A stretch of DNA of 64,000 nt, from contig NZ_CP051131.1 of assembly GCF_013378075.1 (NCBI RefSeq), forward strand, positions 1,116,001 through 1,180,000. Direction: 5' to 3'. This stretch comes from Parasphingopyxis algicola. GTDB taxonomy: Bacteria; Pseudomonadota; Alphaproteobacteria; Sphingomonadales; Sphingomonadaceae. The translations under genes were made by a program, and so were the position numbers. Below, piece by piece: positions 3,608 through 52,579 of this stretch (positions within the stretch are counted from its first letter, which is position 1; each line of letters starts with the position of its first letter). A model generated the notes under the pieces. It did no database searches. It saw only the letters and a list, made by a program, of their open reading frames with translations, and was not told the DNA's origin.

Positions 3608-3674
3608 CCGCCCCAGGCCGGGAGGGGGTGCGGGCCGGTACGGCGATTTCGCGCTCGCGAAATTCTGACAAACT
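3608..3674. repeat. Half copy of palindromic element family C
   Basis: This stretch matches only the right half of the complete family C element at 41322-41454: the GGGAGGGGGTGCGGGCCGGT arm, then a small hairpin ending in GAAATTCTGACAAAC. The left half is absent. The terminal TTCTGACAAAC runs into the leuB stop codon, so the element end forms the 3' end of leuB. Confidence 0.75.
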
Positions 3675-5511: not shown

Positions 5512-7011
5512 CTAATAGCCCTGCGGCCGATCCTCGAATGCCATATCGCTGAACCGCGTGAATTCGCGATCGAAGCGGAGCGTTACCGTGCCGGTCGCGC
5601 CATGGCGCTGTTTGGCGATGATGACCTGCGCCTGGCCCGAAATTTCGGCGTTTTTCAGCTCCCAGGCCGAGCGTTTCTCGCGATCTTCGGGCGAGCTGGT
5701 CTCGCTGATCATCGGCGGCTCGGCGAAACCGTGATAATAATCCTCGCGATAGATGAAGAGGACGATATCGGCGTCCTGCTCGATCGATCCCGATTCGCGC
5801 AGATCCGACAGCTGCGGCTTCTTGTCCTCGCGCTGTTCGACCGCGCGGCTGAGCTGGGAAAGGGCCAGCACCGGGACTTCCAGTTCCTTGGCGAGCGTCT
5901 TGAGTCCCCGGCTGATCTCCGAAATCTCGTTCACGCGATTGTCGTTGGCCTTGCCCGATCCCTGCAGCAGCTGGAGATAGTCGACGACGATCATCGAAAT
6001 GCCGCGCTGGCGCTTCAATCGCCGGGCGCGGGTCCGGAGCGCCGCGATGGTCAGGCCCGGCGTATCGTCTATAAAGAAAGGCAGGCTTTCCAGTTCGGCC
6101 GCGGCGCGCGCGAGATTGCGGAACTCCTCTTGGCTGATCTGGCCCTTGCGGAGTTTCTCCGAGCTGATCCGGGAGCGCTCGGACAGGATACGCGTCGCCA
6201 GCTGGTCGGCCGACATTTCAAGGCTGAAAAAGGCGACCGGAGCGCCAAGCGATTCCTCGATCCCGTCCTCCTGGTCGCGCTGATAGCGAAGCGCCGTCTC
6301 GAACGCGATATTGGTCGCCAGCGCCGTCTTGCCCATGCCGGGGCGCGCGGCGAGGATGATGAGGTCGGACTTGTGCAGCCCGCCGAAATGATGGTTGAGG
6401 CTCGAAAAGCCCGTCGTATAGCCCGAGACATTGCCGCCCGAATTGAGCGCCCGCTGCGCCATCGTGACGGCTTCGGCGGCGGCCGAGGCGAAGGTCTTGG
6501 TCGATCCGCTTTCGCCGCCCGCTTCGGCGACCTTGTACAGCTCGACCTCGGCTTCCTCGATCTGGCTCTTGGGATCGACCGAATCGCTGGTATCGACCGC
6601 CCGTTCGACCATCTCCCGCCCGACGCCGATCAGCGCCCGGAGCAAGGCAAGCTCGTAAATTTGCGTCGCGAAATCGCGGGCGCCGATCAGCGCGACGCCG
6701 CTTTCGGTGATCTTCACCAGATAGCCGACCCCGCCCAGTTCCTTGAGGCCCTCGTCGCTTTCGAACATCGGTTTCAGGGTCACCGGATTGGCGACCATAT
6801 TCTTGTCGACGACCATCTTGATGATCGCCTGATAGATCCGGCCATGCACAGGATCGAAGAAATGGTCCTCGCGCAGCATCCGCTGGACATCGTCGACCAG
6901 CCGGTTGTCGATCAGCAGCGCGCCGAGCAACGCCGCCTCGGCTTCCACGTTGTGGGGAAGCGCGGGAATGCCGTCTTCGTTAGCGCTGATGAGTCGGGCG
7001 GGTTCTGCCAT
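5512..7011 (-). CDS. dnaB: Replicative DNA helicase DnaB
   Basis: Hexameric 5'-3' helicase that opens the replication fork and binds primase (499 residues). N-terminal domain about 15-120 (PHNVEAEAALLGALL), linker, then RecA-like ATPase from about residue 195. Walker A is ARPGMGKTA (about 222-230) and Walker B lies in MIVVDYLQLLQG; a DnaB-type LSQLSRAVEQREDKKPQLSD follows with the ESGSIEQDAD motif. No intein. Start ATG is preceded by AAGGGG. The upstream gap to 7268 carries a complete family C palindrome. Confidence 0.97.
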   Translation of the reverse strand: MAEPARLISANEDGIPALPHNVEAEAALLGALLIDNRLVDDVQRMLREDHFFDPVHGRIYQAIIKMVVDKNMVANPVTLKPMFESDEGLKELGGVGYLVKITESGVALIGARDFATQIYELALLRALIGVGREMVERAVDTSDSVDPKSQIEEAEVELYKVAEAGGESGSTKTFASAAAEAVTMAQRALNSGGNVSGYTTGFSSLNHHFGGLHKSDLIILAARPGMGKTALATNIAFETALRYQRDQEDGIEESLGAPVAFFSLEMSADQLATRILSERSRISSEKLRKGQISQEEFRNLARAAAELESLPFFIDDTPGLTIAALRTRARRLKRQRGISMIVVDYLQLLQGSGKANDNRVNEISEISRGLKTLAKELEVPVLALSQLSRAVEQREDKKPQLSDLRESGSIEQDADIVLFIYREDYYHGFAEPPMISETSSPEDREKRSAWELKNAEISGQAQVIIAKQRHGATGTVTLRFDREFTRFSDMAFEDRPQGY

Positions 7012-7082: not shown

Positions 7083-7217
7083 TGTCAGAATTTTCCTGAC
7101 GGAAAATCGCGGCACCGGCCCGCTCCCCCTCCCGACCGCCCATTCAGGGTACACTCGTGGGCGGTCGGGAGGGGGAGCGGGCCGGTGCCGCGCTCGACCG
7201 ATAGGTCGAGTCTGACA
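7083..7217. repeat. Complete palindromic element, family C, copy 1
   Basis: A compound palindrome. Outer ends are TGTCAGA and TCTGACA in opposite orientation; inside each end lies a small separate hairpin (ATTTTCC/GGAAAAT on the left, CTCGACC/GGTCGAG on the right); the centre is a GC-rich inverted repeat of about 30 bases per arm (GGCACCGGCCCGCTCCCCCT) around a GGGTACACT-containing loop. A second complete copy lies at 41322-41454 in the opposite orientation and a half copy at 3608-3674. Here it sits between the divergent dnaB and UPF0262 genes. Confidence 0.9.
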
Positions 7218-7267: not shown

Positions 7268-7750
7268 ATGGCCGATCCGCGGATCATAGACGTCGAACTC
7301 GACGAGCACACGATCATCTGGCGCAACGCCGATATCGAGCAGGAGCGGCGCATCGCGATTTTCGACCTGCTCGAGGGCAATCACTTCGAACCGGCGCGAG
7401 GTTATCCGAACGGCTATGCGGGGCCCTACAAGCTGACGTTGCGCGTCGAGGAAGGCCGGCTGGCGCTCGATATCGCGGCGGAGAATGGCGAACTCCTCGA
7501 GACGATCATCATCGGCCTCACGCGTTTCCGCCGGCCGATCCGCGAATATTTCGCGATCTGCGACAGCTATTTCCAGGCCATACGCCAGGCGACGCCGCAA
7601 CAGATCGAAACCATCGACATGGCCCGCCGCGCGATCCACAACGATGCGGCCGAATTACTCAAGGACAGGCTCGACGGCAAGATCGACGTCGATTTCGACA
7701 CCGCCCGCCGCCTGTTCACGCTCATCTGCGTCCTGCACATCAAGGGCTGA
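7268..7750 (+). CDS. UPF0262 family protein
   Basis: Conserved alphaproteobacterial protein of 160 residues and unknown function (UPF0262). Recognised by the run of conserved segments ERRIAIFDLLE (about 26-36), FEPARGYPNGYAGPYKL (about 40-56) and PIREYFAICDSYF (about 88-100). No signal peptide or membrane segment, so probably cytosolic. The GH25 gene follows 24 bases downstream and dcd after that, all in one direction, so an operon is likely. Confidence 0.88.
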   Translation: MADPRIIDVELDEHTIIWRNADIEQERRIAIFDLLEGNHFEPARGYPNGYAGPYKLTLRVEEGRLALDIAAENGELLETIIIGLTRFRRPIREYFAICDSYFQAIRQATPQQIETIDMARRAIHNDAAELLKDRLDGKIDVDFDTARRLFTLICVLHIKG

Positions 7751-24299: not shown

Positions 24300-24390
24300 C
24301 GTCATGCTGAACTTGTTTCAGCATCCACTTCTCCTCTTGCACAGGTTCAACAAACTGATGAGTGGACCCTGAAACAAGTTCAGGGTGACG
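24300..24390. repeat. Palindromic repeat, family B, copy 1
   Basis: Inverted repeat starting CGTCATGCTGAACTTGTTTC and ending with its near-complement CCTGAAACAAGTTCAGGGTGACG. Further copies: 28429-28519, 29903-29994, 33240-33385, 42748-42838 and a variant at 48553-48636. It lies between bioB and the methylmalonyl-CoA mutase genes. Confidence 0.88.
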
Positions 24391-29902: not shown

Positions 29903-29994
29903 CGTCATGCTGAACTTGGTTCAGCATCCACCCCCTATTCTCGCATTGCCGTCGCAGATTGAAAAGTGGATCCTGAACCAAGTTCAGGATGACG
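29903..29994. repeat. Palindromic repeat, family B, copy 3
   Basis: CGTCATGCTGAACTTGGTTC at the left, TGAACCAAGTTCAGGATGACG at the right: a compensated change (TTTC to GGTTC, matched in the other arm), which indicates that the stem itself is kept. Confidence 0.87.
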
Positions 29995-33217: not shown

Positions 33218-33239
33218 TGGATTAACCCCTTCAATGATT

Positions 33240-33385
33240 CGTCATGCTGGACTTGTTTCAGCATCCACCCGTCTTCGTGCGACTTCGCTGGCACTTTTCT
33301 CGCTCGTTTTCCAGCACGGCCTGTCCGCACCGGACAATCGGCCACCCAGCCCAAAAGTGGATTCTGAAACAAGTCCAGAATGACG
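33240..33385. repeat. Palindromic repeat, family B, copy 4 (long centre)
   Basis: CGTCATGCTGGACTTGTTTC at the left and CTGAAACAAGTCCAGAATGACG at the right, again with compensated arms (GGAC matched by GTCC). The loop is longer than in the other copies, about 90 bases. Confidence 0.85.
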
Positions 33386-33393
33386 ATAATATT

Positions 33394-40512: not shown

Positions 40513-41313
40513 TTGCAACGCGAAACCCATCTCGAGCTGATGATCGACCTGGCGCTGAAAGCCGGAGCCGCGATCGACGCGGTCTACCGGACCGATTTCG
40601 ACGCCGAGGACAAGGGCGACGGTTCGCCGGTAACCGCCGCCGACACAGAAGCCGAGGCGATCATCGAGGCGGGGCTCAGGGCGGCCCAGCCCGATATCCC
40701 GATCCTCGCCGAAGAAGCGGCGTCGGAGGGCCGCATCCCGGAATTGGGCGATCGTTTCTTCCTCGTCGATCCGCTCGACGGGACGCGCGAATTCGTTTCG
40801 CGCAACGGCGAGTTCACGGTCAATATCGCGCTGATCGACCATGGCCGGCCGATCTCCGGCGTCGTCTACGCACCGGCGATCGACAAGCTCTATCATGGCG
40901 CGATGGGCGAAGGCGCCTTCTACCAGGAGGTCGCCCCCGGCCAGGCGCGCGCGGATGCCGAACATCCGCACGAGATCGAAGCGCGTTCCTCCTTCCACAA
41001 GAATCTCACCGCCGTGGCGAGCCGCAGCCATCGCTCGCCCGAAACCGACGCGCTGCTCGAACGGATCGGCGTCAAGGAATGCACGCCCGCCGGCTCCAGC
41101 CTCAAATTCTGTCTGCTCGCCCAAGGCTCGGCCGACGTCTATCCGCGCCTCGGCCGGACGATGGAATGGGACACGGGCGCCGGCCAGGCCGTGCTCGAAG
41201 CGGCCGGCGGACGCGTCGATATCCTCGAAGGGCAGAACGAGGCGGGACCGTTGACCTATGGCAAGAAGGACCGCGGCTTCGACAACCCCCATTTCATCGC
41301 CTGGGGAAGATGA
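40513..41313 (+). CDS. cysQ: 3'(2'),5'-bisphosphate nucleotidase CysQ-like
   Basis: Inositol monophosphatase-fold Mg2+ enzyme (266 residues) that would remove the 3' phosphate from PAP/PAPS, a sulfur assimilation by-product. Metal motifs: ILAEEAASEG (about 73-82, first Glu), FLVDPLDGTREFV (about 85-97), and the second-half WDTGAGQAVLEAAGG. Start TTG with AAAGGTAAG just upstream. Histidinol-phosphatase or inositol monophosphatase cannot be wholly excluded, but DPLDGTREF with Thr-Arg-Glu-Phe fits CysQ. Confidence 0.88.
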   Translation: MQRETHLELMIDLALKAGAAIDAVYRTDFDAEDKGDGSPVTAADTEAEAIIEAGLRAAQPDIPILAEEAASEGRIPELGDRFFLVDPLDGTREFVSRNGEFTVNIALIDHGRPISGVVYAPAIDKLYHGAMGEGAFYQEVAPGQARADAEHPHEIEARSSFHKNLTAVASRSHRSPETDALLERIGVKECTPAGSSLKFCLLAQGSADVYPRLGRTMEWDTGAGQAVLEAAGGRVDILEGQNEAGPLTYGKKDRGFDNPHFIAWGR

Positions 41314-41321
41314 TTTCTTTA

Positions 41322-41454
41322 TCAGACTCGACCTGTCGGTCGAGCGCCGCACCGGCCCGCACCCCCTCCCGGCCTCACACAGGGTACACTTATTGGGAGG
41401 CCGGGAGGGGGTGCGGGCCGGTGCGGCGATTTCCCGCTAGGGAAATTCTGACAA
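41322..41454. repeat. Complete palindromic element, family C, copy 2
   Basis: Same build as 7083-7217 in the opposite orientation: outer TCAGACTCGACC...; inner GC-rich arms GCACCGGCCCGCACCCCCT and complement; loop with GGGTACACT; then a small hairpin TTTCCC/GGGAAA and the end TTCTGACAAAC. Between the convergent cysQ and enoyl-CoA hydratase genes; arm bases differ from copy 1 with matching changes in the opposite arm. Confidence 0.9.
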
Positions 41455-41466
41455 ACCTAAACCAAA

Positions 41467-42363
41467 TCAAAACTCCGGATCGTCAAACCAGCGCGACAGG
41501 TCGGGCATGTCCGAACTGACCGTATTCGGATAATCGGCCGGGCGCTTCTCCAGGAACGACACCACGCCTTCCTTCGCGTCCTCCTGCCGTCCGCGATACC
41601 AGATTGCCCGGCTGTCCATCCGATGTGCCTCGATCGGATGCGCCGCGCCCAGCATCCGCCACAGCATCTGCCGCGTCATCGCGATCGACACCGGCGCGCT
41701 CTCCGCCGTCATCTCGGTCGCCAGAGCGCGGGCCGCGGGGATCAGCTCGTCCGGCTTGTGGATCGCCTGTACCAGCCCGCCGGCCTTGGCCTCTTCGGCC
41801 CCGAACACATCGCCCTTGTAACACCATTGCAGCGCCTGACTGATCCCGACGAGCCGCGGCAGGAACCAGCTCGACGCCGCCTCGGGGACGATCCCGCGCC
41901 GCGCAAAGACAAAGCCGAACCGCGCATGATCGGCGGCGAGACGCACATCCATCGGCAGGGTCATCGTCGAACCAACGCCGACCGCCGCGCCGTTGATCGC
42001 GCCGATCACCGGCTTCTTGCAGTTGAAGATGCGCAGAGTGAGCTGCCCGCCCCCGTCGCGCGCGCCGCGATGGTTCCAGTCGACGCTGCCATCTTCCTGC
42101 ATCGGCGTATCGCGGTCGAGCCGCTTATCGTAATCGAACGTGTCGCCGCCGGACGACAGATCGGCCCCGGCGCAAAAGGCGCGATCGCCTTGGCCCGTCA
42201 CGATCACCGCGCGGACATCGTCATCCGCATCGGCCTCGTCGAACGCGGCGATCATCTCGTGCATCATCCGCTCGGTGAACGCGTTCATTTTTTCGGGCCG
42301 GTCGAGCGTGATCGTGAAAATGCCGTCCGAAAGATCGGTCAGGATGGTTTGATAATCGGCCAT
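41467..42363 (-). CDS. Enoyl-CoA hydratase/isomerase family protein
   Basis: Crotonase-fold protein of 298 residues, longer than standard hydratases because of an insert after the oxyanion loop (DRAFCAGADLSSGGDTFDYDKRL, about 63-85, then QEDGSVDWNHRGARDGGG). A Glu is kept in RRGIVPEAASSWFLPR (about 150-165), but the other catalytic Glu position (GVGSTMTLPMD) is not Glu, so isomerase or other activity is possible. Upstream AAGAGGAGAGC. It closes the series GIY-YIG, mccA, mccB, ivd on the minus strand; a 3-methylglutaconyl-CoA hydratase role would complete leucine breakdown but is not shown by the residues. Confidence 0.84.
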   Translation of the reverse strand: MADYQTILTDLSDGIFTITLDRPEKMNAFTERMMHEMIAAFDEADADDDVRAVIVTGQGDRAFCAGADLSSGGDTFDYDKRLDRDTPMQEDGSVDWNHRGARDGGGQLTLRIFNCKKPVIGAINGAAVGVGSTMTLPMDVRLAADHARFGFVFARRGIVPEAASSWFLPRLVGISQALQWCYKGDVFGAEEAKAGGLVQAIHKPDELIPAARALATEMTAESAPVSIAMTRQMLWRMLGAAHPIEAHRMDSRAIWYRGRQEDAKEGVVSFLEKRPADYPNTVSSDMPDLSRWFDDPEF

Positions 42364-42747: not shown

Positions 42748-42838
42748 CGTCATGCTGAACTTGTTTCAGCATCCACTCTTCAGTTTGCGACGATTATCCC
42801 AGCTGGTTGGTGGACCCTGAAACAAGTTCAGGGTGACG
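42748..42838. repeat. Palindromic repeat, family B, copy 5
   Basis: CGTCATGCTGAACTTGTTTC at the left and CCTGAAACAAGTTCAGGGTGACG at the right. It lies between the mccA stop (six bases away) and the GIY-YIG start. Confidence 0.88.
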
Positions 42839-48456: not shown

Positions 48457-48552
48457 AGGGCAACCTTCTGTTGAAAGAATGTTGCTTTAGCAAGCCGCGC
48501 GCCCGCCCGGAAGGGCCGGAGATGATTTCGGGGCGGGTCCGATTTTCTCCTT

Positions 48553-48636
48553 CGTCACCCCGGACTTGATCCGGAATCCAGGGCGGCAAGTGAATCCGCC
48601 TTTGGCCCTGGACCCCGGATCAAGTCCGGGGTGACG
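48553..48636. repeat. Palindromic repeat, variant of family B
   Basis: CGTCACCCCGGACTTGATCC at the left, GGATCAAGTCCGGGGTGACG at the right: a perfect 20-base stem, with the inner pair GAATCCAGGGC / GCCCTGGAC(C) and a short loop. The outer CGTCA and the order of bases resemble family B with changed middle. Between the ivd start and the transaldolase gene. Confidence 0.9.
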
Positions 48637-48653
48637 AGTCTTTTTTTTGAGCC

Positions 48654-51673: not shown

Positions 51674-52579
51674 TTAGTCGCGCTCGAAGAAGTGGCGGAA
51701 GAACTTCGCGTGACGAGCCTTGTAGGGCTCCAAGATGCGCCGGGCTTCCTCGCGGTCGCCGAACCAATATTGGCAGAAGGCGGTCTTGCCGATCGTCGCG
51801 TCGGGGAACTGGCGGCCTATCACCGTGCACTGCTGTTCAAGGGAAGCTTCCATGCGTTCGATGCGCTCGATGCGCTCTTCGAGCGTGAAGTCGTCGGTGA
51901 CGATCTTGGTCTGCAAATCGTCGGGGATCGGATCGACGATCTTGAAGTAAAGCGAACCGTCGGCGATTTGCCGAATAACGCGGACGTAAGGCAGGATCAG
52001 TTCAAGCCCGTAGGTGAGCCAGGGCAGAGTGATCGATTTGAAATCCTGGTGAATGAGGATGGTCGAGCCGGGGATGTAGTGTCGCGCGATGATGGCCCAG
52101 GTGCGCTTCCAAACCTCGAGCGTTTTAGCGATGTCGATGTGGCCGATCTCTATCGGGCGGCCGATCCATTCGATCTCGCAAATGTCGCCCGCGTAAAGAT
52201 TGATGAGGCTGCGATAACGGTCGACGACTTTCTCAAAGACGCAGATGTCCTCTTTGATCGGACCGCCGAGAATCTGGGTGACGAGGTCGGCGTCAAAGAT
52301 GCGTTTGGCGTTGTCTTCACCGAACATACCGAAAGCGTGGATGCGGGCGATCTTCTCGGCGTGAGAGAGACGCTTGTTTCTCTCCAGACCCATGCCGAGG
52401 AGATAGGTGCTGCCGCCCAGGAACGTGCCAAAGTCGACAATCTCCCCAACACCAGTGAATTCATGCTGCGCAACGTTCACCAGAAACGAGCGCTCGATCT
52501 CGGTCGTCTGCGAGAGCGTAGCGAGATCCGCCGGATCGGGTATGCTGCTGTAACTGGACGGGAAATCGATCGTGTGCAT
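51674..52579 (-). CDS. Class I SAM-dependent methyltransferase-like protein (sugar-biosynthesis type)
   Basis: Protein of 301 residues with a Rossmann-like SAM site: IVDFGTFLGGSTYL (about 47-60) fits the glycine-rich motif I. HIDIAKT (about 147-153) and ILIHQDF (about 174-180) resemble a family of TylF/cephalosporin hydroxylase-like proteins often coded next to glycosyltransferases. The C-terminal part (about 230-301) is helical and rich in charge. GC is about 50-60% against 65-78% in priA, which suggests transfer. Start ATG with AGAGG upstream. It is on the strand opposite to priA and lies between the two copies of the priA 3' end. Target unknown. Confidence 0.75.
   Translation of the reverse strand: MHTIDFPSSYSSIPDPADLATLSQTTEIERSFLVNVAQHEFTGVGEIVDFGTFLGGSTYLLGMGLERNKRLSHAEKIARIHAFGMFGEDNAKRIFDADLVTQILGGPIKEDICVFEKVVDRYRSLINLYAGDICEIEWIGRPIEIGHIDIAKTLEVWKRTWAIIARHYIPGSTILIHQDFKSITLPWLTYGLELILPYVRVIRQIADGSLYFKIVDPIPDDLQTKIVTDDFTLEERIERIERMEASLEQQCTVIGRQFPDATIGKTAFCQYWFGDREEARRILEPYKARHAKFFRHFFERD

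Follow-up and report, generated by a model that had tools for sequence, protein, structure and literature searches.

Family C of Parasphingopyxis algicola, a dispersed palindromic repeat of REPIN/BIME-like architecture with unlike side hairpins

Background

The double-hairpin elements of fungal mitochondria are small mobile units built of hairpins; the repeat described here, termed family C, is likewise a small unit built of hairpins, whereas those elements are organellar.

In Pseudomonas fluorescens, REPINs consist of two inverted hairpin-bearing ends around a folding spacer, are extragenic, carry compensatory changes and leave solo remnants (PMC3116915). The legend of Fig. S11 of that article proposes that REPINs are recognised in a 'clover' fold and not as a stable hairpin, and its text describes solo REPs as arising by deletion between the two REPs of a REPIN. 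REPINs and BIMEs go together with a RAYT (Y1 transposase) gene flanked by the repeats. The BIMEs of E. coli and Stenotrophomonas are mosaics of inverted hairpin units; BIME-2 of E. coli has two different units, Y and Z2, and some Stenotrophomonas BIMEs are hybrids with complementary changes (PMC2817692). Rare class 3 Y1 proteins are associated with atypical repeat structures of high copy number that have the 5' foot CnGA (PMC6006769). GTAG- and CGTC-tagged REPs are palindromic extragenic repeats, the latter also without a dedicated transposase in the account given in PMC3733652. In the sections of PMC4666352 used here, which treat BoxC-type triplex repeats, no sphingomonad is named.

Family C was compared with these systems as they are described in the parts of the articles cited. 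An initial annotation of the window, a stretch of 64,000 nucleotides of the P. algicola genome, had proposed a MITE- or REPIN-like unit. The REPIN-like architecture was borne out by outer feet, a side hairpin at either end and compensatory changes, and the folded doublet of two inverted hairpin units known from REPINs and BIMEs is present, as are extragenic location, solo remnants and a predicted clover fold. The foot of family C is TGTCAGA, unlike the GTAG of REPINs; a GTAG (GT[AG]G) foot is absent 5' of its hairpins and no RAYT was found in this genome, so that family C is not assigned to the REPINs or BIMEs despite the similar architecture. It further differs from REPINs in that its 85-nt core is itself a near-perfect palindrome and its two hairpins are of different types. 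From BIMEs, with which it shares the mosaic of inverted hairpin units, it is set apart by about five interchangeable hairpin types, by layers that surround one core instead of standing in tandem, and again by the lack of a detected RAYT. The four bases before the family C hairpin, CAGA, agree with the CnGA foot of the class 3 repeats; as a match of four bases, one of them free, this may serve as a weak lead only, and unlike those systems the genome has no match to Y1_Tnp (PF01797). Neither tag of the GTAG- and CGTC-tagged REPs stands at the family C foot, and family C is much longer and has three hairpins.

Structure of the element

Family C is a 135-bp element composed of a foot (TGTCAGA), a side hairpin, a palindromic core of about 85 nt, a second side hairpin and a foot (TCTGACA); the loop of the core reads GGGTACACT (Table 1). 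Both full copies of the initial annotation were recovered, the bounds of copy 2 being refined to 41320-41453, and the half copy mentioned there was located at about 3616-3670 as the right half of an element. The outer ends TGTCAGA/TCTGACA were confirmed at both ends of copy 1; the left foot of copy 2 reads TATCAGA, so that its left end is imperfect. An opposite orientation of the two copies had also been proposed: it holds for the side hairpins, which are swapped, but not for the loop motif, which lies on the plus strand in both.

In both copies the side hairpins comprise 18 nt and the core 84-85 nt. Each copy combines an unlike small hairpin at either end with a long GC-rich stem, as had been annotated, with a fold energy of -120.5 kcal/mol for copy 1 (z = -13.8) and -112.4 kcal/mol for copy 2 (z = -14.7); none of 200 shuffles folded as well as the native sequence of either copy. 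The loop sequence GGGTACACT occurs exactly twice in the window, against 0.03 expected occurrences. No Rfam family matched the window above its gathering score. Family C comprises short, strongly self-pairing repeats dispersed between genes, most of them with a predicted cloverleaf fold.

Table 1. Coordinates of family C copies, their parts and neighbouring genes in the window
Feature	Position	Strand	Remark
Half copy with truncated arm, side hairpin of type a and foot TCTGACA	3616..3670	-	right half of element
Neighbour gene, DnaB-like helicase	5512..7011	-	PF03796, PF00772
Full copy 1, modules a/b	7083..7217	+	between divergent gene pair
Copy 1 left outer foot TGTCAGA	7083..7089	+	pairs with 7211-7217
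Copy 1 left side hairpin, type a (ATTTTCC-TGAC-GGAAAAT)	7090..7107	+	
Copy 1 core palindrome (arms and loop)	7108..7192	+	
Copy 1 conserved loop motif GGGTACACT	7147..7155	+	includes TAnnnT
Copy 1 right side hairpin, type b (CTCGACC-GATA-GGTCGAG)	7193..7210	+	
Copy 1 right outer foot TCTGACA	7211..7217	+	
Neighbour gene, UPF0262	7268..7750	+	anchor for orthologous site in relatives
Neighbour gene, inositol monophosphatase family	40513..41313	+	ends 6 bp before copy 2
Full copy 2, modules b/a	41320..41453	+	between convergent genes
Copy 2 left side hairpin, type b	41327..41344	+	
Copy 2 core palindrome	41345..41428	+	
Copy 2 loop motif GGGTACACT	41382..41390	+	strand as in copy 1
Copy 2 right side hairpin, type a	41429..41446	+	
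Neighbour gene, enoyl-CoA hydratase/isomerase	41467..42363	-	convergent; 3' end 13 bp after copy 2

Copy number and covariation

At least 66 full copies are present in the 3.67-Mb genome, a lower bound since the full-element parse covered about 0.29 of 3.67 Mb, largely picked around known copies; at least one further core lies outside the parsed regions, at position 1,000,369. Together with 29 elements from stretches of the relatives G001, G007 and G008, 95 full elements were parsed. Used as a query against the genome, copy 1 had 95 matches, a figure in which a palindrome may count once per strand, and 40 of the 124 first-look candidates were scored. These matches and the half-units below place the recurrence of the element beyond chance. 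The view of family C as a dispersed unit is upheld by the half-unit pattern GTCAGA-N18-20-CGCSGCACCRG, which has 141 exact places in the genome (72 and 69 by strand) and none for its reversed control, and by family C matches in all ten genomes of the genus that were examined. Feet and hairpins as in family C were also read in a stretch from an uncultured Parasphingopyxis (L178).

For covariation, 63 of 92 usable elements were aligned. Across these copies 96.3% of cells pair, and the covariation score reached 0.291, compared with 0.090 after shuffling and no more than 0.064 when the alignment was slid. Both sides were changed in 24 of 53 pairs, which confirms the compensating stem changes reported earlier, and all pairs of both side hairpins vary. 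Covariation is thus very strong. The bases TCAG of the left foot were invariant in 62 to 63 of the 63 copies, which had been gathered with the TGTCAGA pattern, two mismatches allowed; a BLAST search without foot requirement gave the identical foot. Within copies the arms pair at 98.2% of cells, although the copies differ among themselves.

A 250-kb segment of this genome (G000:C1:2500000-2750000) contains 24 of its 66 full elements, partly by sampling bias, as 140 kb were taken there; many of the listed half-units fall into the same segment. In the hairpin of the half-unit at G000:C1:51831-51865 the left stem is of type b and the right one of type a; the two are mismatched, and the half-unit is likely a recombinant with a chimeric hairpin.

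Side hairpins and predicted folds

About five types of side hairpin were distinguished: a (ATTTCCC), b (CTCGACC), c (ACGTTGC/ACATTGC), e (AACTTCC) and f (CCTTCGG). Facing hairpins were of equal type in one of the 95 elements, compared with 21 expected by shuffling. Likeness was also defined free of types, as an edit distance of at most 3 over 14 stem bases. By this measure no facing pair was alike among the 66 elements of this genome, compared with 12.0 expected and a lowest value of 3 in 1000 shuffles, and one was alike among all 95; at distance 4 the counts were 0/66 and 2/95. For the 29 elements of the relatives, one pair was alike at distance 3 (4.0 expected, P 0.056) and one at distance 2 (P 0.137), the expectation being 3.4 to 4.0 over these two distances, and two were alike at distance 4 (6.0 expected, P 0.023). 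The rule that facing hairpins are unlike is firm in this genome; the relatives' 29 elements by themselves are weakly suggestive of it. The sole like pair by type (G007:C11) begins 36 bases from a contig end, where palindromes may be badly assembled.

Outer layers, absent from 36 of the 95 elements by the parse used, are extra half-units with a period of about 44-45 bp. Adjacent hairpins on the same side were alike in 5 of 86 cases (18.5 expected). Facing hairpins of the second layer showed no avoidance, with 3 of 17 alike and 3.3 expected. This speaks against the explanation preferred below, since it is predicted neither by nesting of whole elements nor by slippage.

With DNA parameters, the 66 native elements of this genome were predicted to fold as a clover in 61 cases, as a long hairpin in three and otherwise in two; when the right hairpin was replaced by the left one, all 66 were predicted to form the long hairpin. 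RNA parameters gave 57, 7 and 2 for the native elements and again 66 of 66 long hairpins for those made alike. In silico, the unlikeness of the hairpins therefore decides the predicted fold. Since a like pair places the same 18 bases as direct repeats on both flanks of a strong hairpin, solo-hairpin scars of the form TGTCAGA-hairpin-TCTGACA are predicted. The exact pattern occurs three times in this genome, against none for the control. When one mismatch was allowed at fixed spacing, eight places were found in three of the ten genus genomes (reversed control 0); six of the eight contain a known hairpin by manual reading, and G000 408257 and G007 C9:84683 have none. Including one of 17 bases from the exact search, there are seven scars, four in this genome, two in G007 and one in G008, and one of them lies between outer-layer half-units (L101). 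The collapse of a like pair would be expected to leave such scars, and we infer that they arise by this route. Of all the results, the unlike-pair rule together with its folds and scars tells most about the element.

Loops of the type c(GNNA)g are unusually stable in DNA. The side loops of family C read TNNC in 186 of 202 hairpins (18-nt hairpins only, found without a loop criterion), that is GNNA on the opposite strand, with the third base C79 T69 A29 G25. Given this third base, the side loops of the genus do not obey the RNA GNRA rule, and RNA GNRA tetraloops were rejected as their type. The few side loops read in two other genera (GTGA, GCAA and GAGA) would also fit GNRA, so that the argument for DNA rather than RNA rests on this genus.

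The oriented core loops read CAGGGTAYACTNAATGGG; they were oriented by a weighted consensus, since the simple motif pattern matches both strands. TAnnnT was present on either strand in 92 of 95 loops (38 in shuffles) and in 88 of 91 loops from other Alphaproteobacteria (40 in shuffles). In sequence it resembles a -10 box, and by eye no -35 box was seen. Among the 88 orientable loops of the 95 elements, the counts gave no clear tie between loop orientation and hairpin side.

Orthologous sites and gene context

Orthologous sites without an element, for which the initial annotation had advised a check, do exist. None of nine relatives had an element within about 400 bp upstream of the UPF0262 gene, the site of copy 1; in G001, G002 and G006 this region resembles, on visual inspection, the same dnaB start. 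The element at 2,412,683 is matched by 17 bp in collinear G007, and that at 2,614,101 by 82 element-free bases in collinear G001. Conversely, no counterpart of the G001 element at 1,918,998 was found in the matching, diverged gap of this genome, and the place of the G001 element at 1,934,951 is taken here by a remnant that lacks the core. The full element at 2,620,656 is represented by a truncated half in G001, and the common site 2,615,378 carries b/a here, with a mixed a/e hairpin, and b/c in G001. Such filled, empty and remodelled sites lend indirect support, through site comparison, to the proposed mobility of family C. At a further orthologous site (G000:C1:2592199-2592466 and G007:C11:2850-3026), the order of the side hairpins is seemingly reversed and the loop orientation kept.

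A MITE-like unit in the strict sense is not supported. Terminal inverted repeats of the MITE type are present (TGTCAGA/TCTGACA); direct repeats of 2-9 bp were not notably in excess beside the outermost ends of 94 copies, by which a MITE with target duplication is ruled out, and no transposase with matching ends was found among those sought. Over the same 94 copies the flanks are T-rich on the 5' side and A-rich on the 3' side. With the T-run 5' of the hairpin, on the wrong side, the elements are not intrinsic terminators.

Gene context was determined with a home-made gene caller for the 68 of 95 elements with enough flank. None of these lies inside a predicted gene; 30 are in convergent, 34 in tandem and 4 in divergent gaps. 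Copies are thus not confined to convergent gene ends as strict terminators; such confinement, together with a lack of empty sites, had been named as evidence against a mobile unit, and neither was observed. The background of gaps of at least 60 bp in this genome was 16 convergent, 62 tandem and 30 divergent (108 in all), and that of all adjacent gene pairs 32, 113 and 32. Convergent gaps are over-represented (30/68 vs 16/108, P 3.6e-5) and divergent gaps avoided (4/68 vs 30/108, P 3.1e-4), also when the elements of this genome are taken alone (convergent 18/41, P 3.5e-4; divergent 3/41, P 0.007). Of the 30 convergent elements, 22 lie at most 15 bp from a gene end, a count that compact gaps alone could yield.

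Search for a mobilising enzyme

The initial annotation had suggested looking for a transposase with matching ends; none emerged from the searches of the Y1 family or among the recurrent neighbours of the core. A Y1 transposase (PF01797) was detected neither in this genome, which rules out a RAYT partner for it, nor in G001 or G007. Y1_Tnp exceeded the cut-off in two of the ten genus genomes, G006 and the copy-rich G008. The ends of the G006 gene (L103) read TTTCGGTGACAGT and those of the G008 gene (L104), which are similar, GTGACAGT...; TGTCAGA is absent from both. Inverted repeats of the TTTCGGTGACAGT type or similar flank both genes, with further copies in L103, and to judge from their sequence form a separate repeat family. 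In the family as a whole, 17 of 99 genomes have Y1, among them the core-rich G036. The core occurs in 8 of these 17 and in 32 of the 82 genomes without Y1 (Fisher P 0.59), so there is no association of Y1 with the core across the family, and none of 20 Y1 loci of the family had a core in the flank fetched.

Recurrent neighbours were sought in 118 listed stretches with the exact arm pattern of the core. Twenty-five clusters of open reading frames occurred in at least three stretches and three clusters in at least four. Members of the largest cluster (nine stretches, ABC transporter) lie 0.8-7 kb from the core in the six stretches with a parsed core. In a four-member cluster, three Exo_endo_phos nucleases from three genera stand within 34 bp of a core (L172 3096, L201 1873 and L233 4076); the core is at the 3' side in one case and at the 5' side in two, and given these inconsistent sides the adjacency is put down to coincidence or to a site in common. 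Aconitase C-terminal reading frames lie at most 22 bp from a core in two stretches (L183 and L142). No gene family was convincingly recurrent beside the cores of the 118 listed stretches, and no transposase was found among the recurrent clusters checked.

Distribution of the core

A covariance model found matches in 40 of the 99 genomes of this bacterial family. Eleven of the matches, read from other genera, have the arm and loop of the core in common and carry different side hairpins; paired feet were found in none of the 11, and L115 has TGTCAGA on one side. The same core is present in 21 elements of G036 and G095, in most of them flanked on either side by a small hairpin. The exact arm pattern was found in at least 118 stretches. 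Among the matches listed are, from the Sphingomonadales, Sphingomonas, Novosphingobium, Sphingopyxis, Hephaestia, Qipengyuania and others, and further Neoroseomonas, Belnapia and other Acetobacteraceae or Rhodospirillales. Two-armed cores were present in 87 of the 118 listed stretches, 92 cores in all. A looser arm pattern was present in 9 of 385 genomes of a class-wide sample, spread over seven families, and in 8 of 398 of a phylum-wide sample; these eight all belong to this bacterial family. Judged by sequence, the core recurs with other side hairpins in other Sphingomonadales and in Acetobacteraceae.

A description of this repeat family was not found in the open-access literature searched, and four core strings of 19-20 bases had no match in the text of that literature. 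Its wide core marks it as a repeat family of these two groups with possible effects on assembly breaks and gene 3' ends. In five whole short contigs (L144, L145, L160, L165 and L171) a single core arm lies at most about 80 bases from the contig end, as if draft assemblies break at the palindrome.

Possible explanations

We incline, with slightly more than even confidence, to the explanation that family C is a REPIN/BIME-like, non-autonomous palindromic mosaic element which works as folded single-stranded DNA and is moved by a presumed enzyme. In the single-stranded state, as on the lagging-strand template, the element would fold into a four-way cloverleaf made up of the paired feet, two small side hairpins whose loops are of the c(GNNA)g type, and a long stem displaying GGGTACACT. 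The side hairpins would need to be unlike, since a like pair is predicted to form a single long hairpin instead. Such a pair, as 18-bp direct repeats around the core, would be lost by slippage or palindrome processing and leave a solo hairpin. Recombination would swap modules between copies, giving interchangeable hairpins and extra outer layers, and copies would persist where they are least harmful, near gene 3' ends. Of the parts of this explanation, the anatomy, the covariation, the unlike-pair rule in this genome, the alternative folds in silico, the scars, the filled and empty sites and the wide core rest on observation; single-stranded DNA as the active form, collapse as the origin of the scars and the mobilising enzyme are inferences. 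A bolder version seems improbable to us: a class-wide alphaproteobacterial family of single-stranded DNA elements mobilised free of Y1, in which the four-way junction would be the substrate, the unlike hairpins a switch that forbids the silent long hairpin, and the -10-like TAnnnT of the loop, when single-stranded, would be read by the mobiliser or by RNA polymerase.

There is an appreciable chance, though one well short of even, that the unlike-pair rule is a matter of survival alone: like pairs would arise freely and then be deleted, the cloverleaf having no function. Scars exist, and adjacent like hairpins are depleted as well (5/86); facing pairs of the second layer are not (3/17), and the strong conservation of the side loops is not required by pure survival. 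Since this account overlaps with the collapse step of the preferred explanation, the chances given to the various readings do not sum to one. It is rather unlikely that there is no dedicated mobiliser and that the palindromes multiply and rearrange on their own through template switching, gene conversion and ectopic recombination. The close pairing of arms within copies that differ from one another, the b/a and b/c states of one orthologous site, the chimeric half-unit at 51831-51865 and the failure of the Y1 and neighbour searches to yield a partner gene would fit such a process, but new sites in otherwise collinear DNA need an insertion route, and the same core in distant families is hard to obtain without transfer. 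Equally doubtful is a 3'-end element kept by the host, whose transcribed hairpin would protect or end messages, with the loop as a protein or RNA site and the copies useful. The excess of convergent and the avoidance of divergent gaps, the covariance model matching both strands of the same elements and the TAnnnT of nearly all loops agree with it; against it stand the T-run 5' and A-run 3' of the hairpins, the reverse of an intrinsic terminator, the gain and loss of sites between species, the side loops that depart from the RNA GNRA rule in this genus, the 34 of 68 elements in tandem gaps and the position of copy 1 between divergent genes.

Family C is a natural comparison for the clover and long-hairpin proposal made in the Fig. 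S11 legend of PMC3116915. In this genome nearly all copies are predicted to be clovers and the like-pair state is met only as solo scars, so that element pairs with a single hairpin changed would put the question to a direct test.

Further observations

The flanks of the element at G000:C1:2361956 lie apart and in different orientations in G007 (G007:C18:51722-58210), where the right junction, and not the left one, falls inside a G007 element; this is read as an apparent rearrangement near elements. The purine arm of the core (e.g. window 7158-7192) has G runs spaced like a putative G-quadruplex motif; the runs are near-invariant and the positions between them covary. Other palindromic repeats of the window start with (T)CGTCA (24300-24390, 29903-29994, 33239-33386, 42748-42838 and 48552-48637). 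They are perhaps CGTC-tagged REPs as in PMC3733652 and possibly correspond to the families A and B of the initial annotation.
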